A DNA stretch of 64,000 nucleotides from Marivirga salinae (lineage in GTDB: Bacteria; Bacteroidota; Bacteroidia; Cytophagales; Cyclobacteriaceae): NCBI RefSeq assembly GCF_030503855.1, contig NZ_CP129971.1, forward strand, positions 3,968,001 to 4,032,000. Direction: 5' to 3'. The notes under the pieces are model-generated. The model had not been told where the DNA came from, did no database searches, and worked only from the letters and a program-made list of their open reading frames with translations. The translations under genes and the position numbers were made by a program. Below, one piece after another: positions 32,660-33,166 of this stretch. The number at the start of each line of letters is the position of its first letter. Within the stretch, counting starts at the first letter, position 1.

Positions 32660-32784
32660 AATTTTAAAATTTAAGATGAATATATTTTTTGAATGAATAT
32701 TTAAATATTTGTGAGCCGTTCAGGGTATCTGATTGAATCACTAAATTTTATTAAACAATTGATTTTTAGCGGATTAAAAGAATT

Positions 32785-32845
32785 TCGAAATGAATCTTAA
32801 AACTGAAAAGGGTGTGATTTCCCCTTTAGATTATCGAAATGAATC
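32785..32845. repeat. 12-bp direct repeat in the metY leader
   Basis: TCGAAATGAATC occurs at 32785-32796 and again at 32834-32845, 49 bases apart, on either side of a hairpin (32807-32827). As both copies are in the untranslated RNA they could pair alternately with a third segment or bind a protein. No function is proven. Confidence 0.6.
32807..32827 (-). terminator. Terminator-like hairpin in the metY leader
   Basis: In RNA sense the stem AAAGGG/CCCTTT with a nine-base loop is followed by a T-containing stretch (TTTTCAGTTTT). It lies 40 bases beyond the leader ORF stop and 148 before metY. The stem is short, so it is a candidate attenuator and not a sure terminator. Confidence 0.4.
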
Positions 32846-32858
32846 CAAATAGAATTGA

Positions 32859-32877
32859 GTTGTTGATTAGCAACAAC
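32859..32877 (-). promoter_or_regulatory. Hairpin overlapping the Cys codons and stop of the leader ORF
   Basis: In RNA sense the bases read GTTGTTGCTAATCAACAAC: a perfect 7-bp stem whose 5' arm is made of the last three Cys codons, and whose five-base loop holds the stop codon. A ribosome stalled on the Cys codons would keep it open, and a ribosome that finishes would let it form. Confidence 0.65.
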
Positions 32878-33013
32878 AGCACATACACATTCGCATGTAT
32901 GCAATAGGATTAATGGGATTAAGCTTAGTTGCTTTATTTATTGAAAATGAATTCTTTGCCGAAGTGGCTTGTTTGATGTGATCGCTGAAAGCGAAGAATT
33001 GTAAGTTGTTCAT
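32867..33013 (-). CDS. Met/Cys leader peptide of the metY operon
   Basis: This is a 48-codon frame with ATG at 33013, seven bases after the 3' strand of the riboswitch P1 stem. The C-terminus reads AYMRMCMCCCC, with three Met and five Cys in the last nine residues. An upstream extension of the frame to 33082 would run through the riboswitch and is rejected. Codon content and position (between a SAM riboswitch and metY) are those of an attenuator peptide that measures charged tRNA-Cys and perhaps tRNA-Met. The N-terminal 39 residues have no obvious role. I infer translation; the sequence shows an uninterrupted frame only. Confidence 0.7.
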   Translation of the reverse strand: MNNLQFFAFSDHIKQATSAKNSFSINKATKLNPINPIAYMRMCMCCCC

Positions 33014-33020
33014 AATTGTT

Positions 33021-33114
33021 AATTTATATTTCCCAATATCGGGCAGGATTTGGCACCTTGATTCAGGTTGCCAGAGGGTCAACGAGCCTGTCTCTCACCT
33101 CTTCGTTATAAATT
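33021..33114 (-). ncRNA. SAM-I (S-box) riboswitch
   Basis: The RNA-sense sequence has the S-box core: GAGGTGAGAGACAGG, the invariant TTGACCCTCTGGCAACC, AAGGTGCCAAATCCTGCC, and a small P4 hairpin CCCGATATTGGG. P1 is formed by AATTTATA (33107-33114) and TATAAATT (33021-33028), a perfect 8-bp stem. SAM binding stabilises P1. As P1 ends just before the leader ATG, the output is probably on translation of the leader peptide and through it on the operon. It is placed about 20 bases behind a full promoter and in front of methionine synthesis genes, as expected. Confidence 0.93.
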
Positions 33115-33133
33115 GATTACCGAAATAACACTT

Positions 33134-33166
33134 CAAATGTAGGAAAAGCTTTTTGAAATAAACAAA
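33134..33166 (-). promoter_or_regulatory. Promoter of the metY-metX-hom operon
   Basis: On the minus strand TTTG (33163-33166), a 21-base spacer and TACATTTG (33134-33141) form a Bacteroidota housekeeping promoter. The predicted start is about 10-15 bases before the riboswitch. Confidence 0.75.

Follow-up and report, generated by a model that had tools for sequence, protein, structure and literature searches.

Does a short, Cys- and Met-rich reading frame lying between a SAM-I riboswitch and metY give sulfur assimilation in Marivirga salinae a second regulatory input? The window in which it lies is the whole 64,000-nt stretch of M. salinae DNA that was analyzed, and all features of the metY leader locus are on its minus strand (Table 1). 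The original prediction described a riboswitch and a Met/Cys leader peptide ahead of metY-metX-hom and proposed that the two form a gate. We confirm the observation of a riboswitch and a Cys/Met leader before metY. On comparison with related loci, we consider it likely that this is a two-input RNA controller of sulfur assimilation, in which SAM would be sensed by the riboswitch and the charging of Cys (and Met) tRNA by the ribosome translating the leader.

Table 1. Features of the metY leader locus, with positions in the 64,000-nt window
Feature	Position	Strand	Basis and remarks
Promoter-like site TTTG-N21-TACATTTG	33134..33166	-	Bacteroidota-type -33/-7 pattern search
SAM-I riboswitch aptamer	33021..33114	-	Infernal RF00162; P1 mostly A-U pairs
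Leader ORF MNNLQFFAFSDHIKQATSAKNSFSINKATKLNPINPIAYMRMCMCCCC, 48 codons + stop	32867..33013	-	ORF list, conservation
Met/Cys codon tail MRMCMCCCC, proposed tRNA-charging sensor	32870..32896	-	Tail enrichment in metY leaders
Short hairpin GUUGUUG-CUAAU-CAACAAC over last Cys codons and stop	32859..32877	-	Folding
Large imperfect hairpin UGGAUU...AAUCC with inner AAAGGG/CCCUUUU hairpin, then U-rich	32771..32847	-	Folding; weak terminator-like
Second hairpin GUGA...UCAC and equivalents	32711..32741	-	Some compensatory changes within genus
metY, O-acetylhomoserine sulfhydrylase	31331..32659	-	TIGR01326 674.5 bits, cut-off 495.1
metX, homoserine O-acetyltransferase	30328..31401	-	TIGR01392 E 8e-88, 294.8 bits, cut-off 500
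hom, homoserine dehydrogenase	29142..30341	-	NF004976 309.9 bits, cut-off 205

The aptamer scores 77.2 bits (E 2.1e-16) against a gathering score of 44.4, in agreement with the complete SAM-I core that had been predicted. The geometry also proved exact: the leader ATG at 33013 lies 7 nt past the 3′ end of P1, the frame runs through 48 sense codons to a TAA at 32869–32867, and 207 nt separate this stop from the metY ATG at 32659. The gene order holds as well, with metY and hom above their cut-offs and metX matching its family at a low E-value but far under the curated cut-off. The TTG start of metX was assigned mechanically, and a later ATG is probably the true start. The predicted promoter fared less evenly. 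The site is present, and TACATTTG or TAAATTTG is found at the equivalent place in all five of the correctly oriented same-genus rows that extend to it (L116, L118, L119, L120 and L034), four minus-strand loci being left out; but the TTTG-N21-TACATTTG pattern has 8 matches in the whole window against 9.3 expected, and is thus no rarer than chance. The promoter consensus described for Bacteroidota is TAnnTTTG (PMC9723704).

Conservation of the leader was assessed in two partly overlapping surveys, which have eight leaders in common. Survey 1 comprised 151 SAM-I loci, the best-scoring matches listed from a search of 195 genomes in which further matches exist; 33 came from initial searches and 118 were fetched, and one contig-edge locus (G100:C81) was left out. 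These loci were sorted by the class of the downstream gene, 5 of the 151 being unclassified and outside the class tables; Cys leaders are present at the unclassified loci L181 and L241. Survey 2 took the best 80 metY loci of a genome collection, spanning several orders, and scored them for SAM-I with Infernal. A SAM-I lies upstream of metY in 71 of these 80 (1485 nt away in L074), and the other 9 have none above the gathering score. An adjacent leader was defined as an ORF of 15 aa or more with its ATG 3–15 nt after P1, and a Cys tail as at least three Cys among the last ten residues.

By these definitions, every one of the 54 SAM-I/metY loci among the matches listed in survey 1 has an adjacent ORF, and 36 of the 54 have a Cys tail; for the best 80 metY loci of survey 2, the counts are 62 and 46 of 71. 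Dinucleotide shuffles of the metY leaders produced an adjacent ORF in 8.1% of 1080 and 8.9% of 1420 cases, and a Cys tail in 0 of 1080 and 0.14% of 1420. Because the real rates of both ORF and Cys tail are far above those of the shuffles, the leader is not a chance ORF. Nine of the 71 survey 2 loci lack an adjacent ORF. Five of these have a Cys leader 43–383 nt from P1 (L065, L082 and L113 at 325–383 nt, L046 and L048 at 43–62 nt), so that the fixed spacing has been lost, and in the other four none was found. By record title, carriers of the ORF in survey 2 include Pedobacter, Mucilaginibacter, Pontibacter and Thermonema, together with metagenome genomes labelled Saprospiraceae and Lewinella, and the ORF occurs without a Cys run in Sphingobacterium, Algoriphagus and Cyclobacterium. 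Within the genus Marivirga, 10 of 10 genomes (the tenth being L262) carry a Cys-tailed leader, with four or more Cys among its final ten residues, and SAM-I is above threshold at 9 of 10 metY loci, the tenth (L117) stopping at a contig end. Across the metY upstream regions compared, both the riboswitch (RF00162) and the short Cys-ending ORF are widely conserved. Relatives that keep the riboswitch thus also keep the frame position, the tail and the gene association, the opposite of the outcome that the original prediction had named as speaking against it.

Some loci depart from this layout. In two species of the window's own genus (L122 and L123), metY is separated from the Cys leader by an extra gene; the metY of L122 starts at 1501, a piece of its intervening gene matches OsmC (PF02566), and the gene in L123 is similar by eye. 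At L097, a metY locus from a Flavobacteriaceae metagenome genome that has no SAM-I above threshold at this locus, a short ORF ending GCCC (2126–2197) lies 303 nt before metY and is possibly a stand-alone Cys leader.

The distance between P1 and the leader start is nearly fixed. Among the 121 metY leaders found within 3–15 nt across the two overlapping surveys, 113 start 6–10 nt after P1. The regulated gene itself begins 166–713 nt (54 loci listed) or 133–1485 nt (71 loci) after P1. The leader ATG of four same-genus species directly abuts P1, at an offset of -1 or 0, and is missed by the +3 to +15 limits. In some SAM-I switches the ribosome binding site forms part of the 3′ strand of P1 (PMC2258182). 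SAM should likewise block initiation here, at the leader start, and start codons mostly 6–10 nt from P1 fit such SAM-controlled initiation. The aptamer and the placing of a start region against P1 are shared with the SAM-I switches described there that control translation directly, but here the start beside P1 is that of the leader ORF, not that of the regulated gene.

The leader is associated with particular downstream genes. Among the matches listed in survey 1, an adjacent ORF is present at 9 of 18 loci of the second sulfhydrylase class (Cys tail at 7 of 18), at 1 of 62 metH loci (Cys tail at none) and at 0 of 12 CGS/metX/hom loci. As metH leaders are short, the matches listed were recounted for gaps of at least 100 nt, giving 54/54 for metY, 9/13 for the second sulfhydrylase, 1/9 for metH and 0/11 for CGS/metX/hom. 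The ORF is thus frequent at metY and nearly absent at metH, so the leader tracks sulfide-fixing genes and not the riboswitch itself. This near-absence at the examined metH riboswitches (one ORF, without a Cys tail, in the 62 listed) is new relative to the original prediction. In a class-wide sample made up of the best 30 loci of a longer list (best class metH 22, CGS 4, metY 2, metX 1, none 1), inspection by eye found no adjacent leader with at least three Cys, and an adjacent ORF at both metY loci, one of which (L326) is L176 of the 151. At L266 (G170:C1:1047600-1050749), a SAM-I and a Cys leader ending MALLCCCC precede an NhaC/DcuC-type transporter, whose cargo may be a sulfur compound.

Also new is that the module occurs a second time in the M. 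salinae genome, before another sulfur operon. At this locus (L002/L270, G000:C1:38000-40700), a SAM-I at G000:C1:40321-40424 is followed 9 nt on by a leader reading MNKQK...ICCCSNCCC-stop (L002). The gene behind it is O-succinylhomoserine-sulfhydrylase-like (514.1 bits against a cut-off of 522), and the next gene carries a nitrite/sulfite reductase domain. In three other genomes (L263–L265) the leader stands before a YfhL-type ferredoxin, a sulfhydrylase and a reductase-family gene, and in L267 it directly precedes a reductase-family gene together with a siroheme gene, for uroporphyrinogen-III methyltransferase. The best NCBIfam names of the reductases are nitrite-reductase types, under their cut-offs, and we read them as sulfite reductases on account of the neighboring sulfhydrylase. 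The genes downstream of the leader are therefore metY, the second sulfhydrylase and sulfite/nitrite-reductase-family genes, which suggests that what lies behind it fixes or makes sulfide. A third SAM-I in the M. salinae genome precedes metH (L003); the 17-codon ORF at +12 behind it extends into metH and lacks a Cys tail.

We also scanned the genome for the pattern TGY-TGY-TGY-TRR, considering ATG frames and skipping two sites ending in TGG. It gave 44 matches against 5 for the reversed control pattern; 30 and, within 12 stretches, another 13 were read, and one is the window's own leader. A genome-wide family of Cys leaders was rejected: besides both SAM-I loci, the scan yielded a single ATG frame of more than 15 aa (59 aa, L277). 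Another TGY-run site, L339, has 95 open codons without an ATG.

The tail of the leader differs from its body in both composition and conservation. In the last ten residues of 111 distinct metY leaders, Cys accounts for 41% and Met for 11%, against 2.6% and 1.5% in the body; these are the two residues most enriched in the tail, which fits a sensor of tRNA charging. The Cys codons of metY leaders are mixed (285 TGT, 174 TGC). Among four close relatives, the body has a dN/dS of 0.43–0.84, and the last 9 codons have undergone synonymous change alone. A free body with a fixed tail is the pattern of a putative sensor codon run, and of the two marks of conservation named beforehand, a Ka/Ks below 1 or a conserved Cys tail, both are seen. 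The frame is short, conserved and rich in codons for products of the pathway, and so resembles amino-acid leaders generally; its promoter is assigned by consensus alone.

The alternative that survives best, control by SAM only, we nevertheless consider unlikely. The leader ORF would then be the expression platform of the riboswitch, its translation opening or protecting the mRNA as far as metY, and the Cys codons would add little. An ORF with fewer than three tail Cys is retained near P1 at 18 of the 54 loci listed in survey 1 and at 16 of the 71 from the best 80 of survey 2, so Cys sensing appears dispensable for the arrangement. In addition, the leader stop of L017, L019, L020 and L201 is 8–31 nt from metY, which fits coupling or relief of polarity. 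However, the absence of nonsynonymous change in the last 9 codons, despite diverged bodies, is hard to square with codons of little consequence, and so is the distribution of the Cys tail on an 80-locus metY tree. The tail is the majority state, at 55 of 80 leaves, and requires 9 parsimony changes, compared with at least 16 (mean 21.4) in 300 shuffles. Loci without it group into an Algoriphagus/Cyclobacterium clade, a Sphingobacterium clade, a Chitinophagaceae-type metagenome clade and a few singles. In several clades, then, the Cys tail seems to have been lost and the ORF kept, which is also new; that this was loss and not gain we infer from a tree rooted at its midpoint. The Sphingobacterium leaders L107, L111 and L112 keep the ORF and have a Met-rich end (MRMRMH...) without a Cys run, and are perhaps Met-only or decayed sensors.

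A second alternative, in which the Cys-rich nascent peptide senses metals or redox state or is released as a functional microprotein, we regard as improbable. Cys-rich upstream ORFs that sense copper exist and provide a precedent, and the richest tail has 9 Cys in its last 10 residues (L043). Against this, the peptide body is poorly conserved, as its dN/dS indicates, and the leader matched no Pfam family. The Cys run lies beside the stop and would mostly still be in the exit tunnel, Met is enriched too, and the downstream genes belong to sulfur assimilation.

The RNA between the leader stop and the gene was analyzed for leaders with duplicates removed and with stop-to-gene distances above about 260–300 nt left out. 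Compared with shuffles, structure is in excess in the 90 nt that follow the stop (mean z -1.40, n=81) but not in the leader body (z -0.21, n=71); around the gene start the RNA is open (z +0.58, n=83). Pedobacter offers the clearest structure, a post-leader hairpin with compensatory change in 5 of 6 pairs across 11 loci. It has 16 compensatory cells against 4.7 in shuffles, a value reached by 0 of 500, with the structure drawn from the same alignment; the counts of pairs and of pair types, reached by 15 and 271 of 500 shuffles, are less telling. In the same genus, an invariant CUUCC...GGAAG pair behind the leader stop adjoins the covarying hairpin and UAC (L071, L081, L083, L086, L088, L089, L091, L093, L094, L101 and L103).

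In the window, the short hairpin over the last Cys codons shows no compensatory change in the genus alignment, where as many as 2 of 8 species break some of its pairs, and the large hairpin is passed over by the genus consensus fold. That fold has both-side changes in 5 of its 31 predicted pairs, all in the second hairpin, about 50–80 nt before metY; each of the five is also disrupted in 1–3 of the 8 species, and the covariation term comes to +0.5. The best terminator-like energy in the window, for a candidate near 32806–32826, is -4.6 kcal/mol, equalled by 2 of 10 shuffles. For 84 leaders with at least three Cys, the best hairpin-plus-U energy averages -4.3 kcal/mol, compared with -2.7 in shuffles; in 52%, two or fewer of ten shuffles are as good, 15 of the 84 reach -8 or better, and 11 have no candidate. 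Positions vary and U-runs are often poor, and no regular intrinsic terminator was found between leader and gene in this set. A tandem repeat search gave nothing relevant.

These folds bear on a third explanation, to which we give very little credence, that the (UGY)n run is kept as one arm of a conserved RNA helix with partners such as CAGCAACAA downstream, poly-Cys being a by-product. The Cys codons are indeed predicted to pair with downstream arms at a number of loci, the window hairpin GUUGUUG/CAACAAC among them. Their own partner pairs hardly better than swapped ones (p=0.049, n=91), however, and the tail helix of the 11 Pedobacter loci shows zero compensatory change and pairs no better than shuffles. 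On the same figures, a switch of the trp/his attenuator type, with alternative helices pairing the Cys codons to a downstream arm, has marginal support. Moreover, the run is in frame with an ATG near P1, and the tail is also enriched in Met.

Sequestration of the metY start, as in a translation attenuator, was modelled and rejected: the start is ∼62%–63% unpaired in all three modelled states, and differences in its accessibility between ribosome states are not significant (p=0.85, 0.067 and 0.66; n=83), single loci moving either way. The C/G ratio is 1.68 after Cys leaders, compared with 1.25 in metH leaders and 1.08 in metX/CGS/hom leaders, but the leader body has nearly the same ratio (1.64), so C-richness does not set the spacer apart, and the 70 nt directly past the stop have 1.34. 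A C-rich, G-poor spacer would suit Rho and proves nothing. The module probably acts on transcription elongation.

We propose the following model for the two-input controller. At high SAM, P1 would be stabilized; from its position it would lie inside the footprint of a ribosome initiating at the leader ATG, so that translation of the leader would stop. At low SAM the leader would be translated and, judging from its codon content, the ribosome would slow or stall at the Cys/Met tail by the stop if tRNA-Cys (or tRNA-Met) is poorly charged. In the last step, the most tentative, the absence, stalling or release of the ribosome would set the effect of the structured RNA on RNA polymerase. Termination before metY is the most likely route, and is perhaps Rho-dependent, as suggested by the lack of a regular intrinsic terminator and by the unsequestered metY start. 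An untranslated leader or normal release would allow termination, and a ribosome stalled at the Cys codons would prevent it. The expected outcome is that metY and the second operon are on if SAM and Cys are both low and off if either is plentiful, a logic that suits genes supplying sulfide for both amino acids. Comparison across loci supports the two proposed inputs, SAM and Cys, well, with frame position, tail and gene association conserved, and the predicted gate is partly supported; the sign of the Cys input and its action on metY we infer. The opposite sign, in which a stalled ribosome lowers metY and so leaves sulfide free for making cysteine while that amino acid is scarce, seems to us very improbable: the sequence leaves the sign unfixed, and sulfide is common to cysteine synthesis and direct sulfhydrylation, which makes the opposite sign possible for metY, but it is less sensible for the sulfite/nitrite-reductase-family genes that the leader also precedes, which would be needed under cysteine shortage if they make sulfide.

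Cysteine leaders are known from other bacteria. Mycobacterial poly-cysteine ORFs are reportedly leaderless, whereas the Bacteroidota leaders described here are not. In Actinobacteria, poly-Cys leader ORFs precede cys operons without conserved terminators, and Rho-dependent control has been suggested (PMC1262725). These share with the present leaders a short ORF, a Cys run near the stop and the lack of a conserved terminator; they differ in that here a SAM-I precedes at near-fixed spacing, in another phylum, and that metY, the second sulfhydrylase and reductase-family genes lie downstream in place of cys genes. The metL leader of Streptomyces lividans metNIQ, which ends CMCRRMCAF, is similar in its mixed Cys/Met end, its methionine gene cluster and its lack of a typical terminator, but it belongs to a leaderless transcript of methionine import genes, and the SAM riboswitch is at another operon (PMC8079986). 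The proteobacterial uORFC-8-2 of cysS is likewise a Cys-codon leader ORF before a cysteine-related gene; its tandem Cys codons are usually at 14–15, a U-run fits a terminator, and the excerpt of that report available mentions no riboswitch (PMC8632094).

Other leaders combine sensors or couple translation to termination. The SAM-I/AdoCbl tandem of Bacillus clausii metE also joins two sensors in one 5′ leader, but its aptamers control termination independently (PMC2258182), whereas here the proposed output of the aptamer is translation of the second sensor. In the mgtA leader, translation of the leader peptide MgtL decides a Rho-dependent terminator, the likeness proposed here; in contrast, that system responds to Mg2+ through ribosome drop-off at an EPDP motif, and no aptamer gates the start of its leader in the text at hand (PMC11282234). 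Transcriptomes of Flavobacterium (PMC9723704) and Bacteroides (PMC7366714) treat leader-peptide attenuation in general terms in the parts available. No paper combining a SAM riboswitch with a cysteine leader was found in the literature searched, whose coverage largely excludes subscription papers, and in papers containing both "SAM riboswitch" and "leader peptide" the combination is absent from the passages available. Two known kinds of sensor are thus combined in a new way.

Metabolite sensing by riboswitches and by ribosome-read leader peptides is usually regarded as two distinct mechanisms; here a riboswitch seems to control a sensor peptide. We lean towards a broader reading, with somewhat less confidence than for the controller itself, in which a widely conserved riboswitch class would use the start of a sensor peptide as its platform, giving a hierarchical SAM-over-Cys/Met gate at two or more separate sulfur-assimilation operons of one genome and in several Bacteroidota orders. 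If true, this would be a compact gate in which SAM takes priority over cysteine. The module is found repeatedly ahead of genes that fix sulfide and hardly at all at metH riboswitches, so that the metabolic step appears to govern where it is used. Natural variants, with the ORF with or without a Cys tail, with the ORF away from P1 or with none, make the two inputs separable by comparison of culturable species. The module may help to explain how the supply of Cys and Met is coordinated in Bacteroidota.
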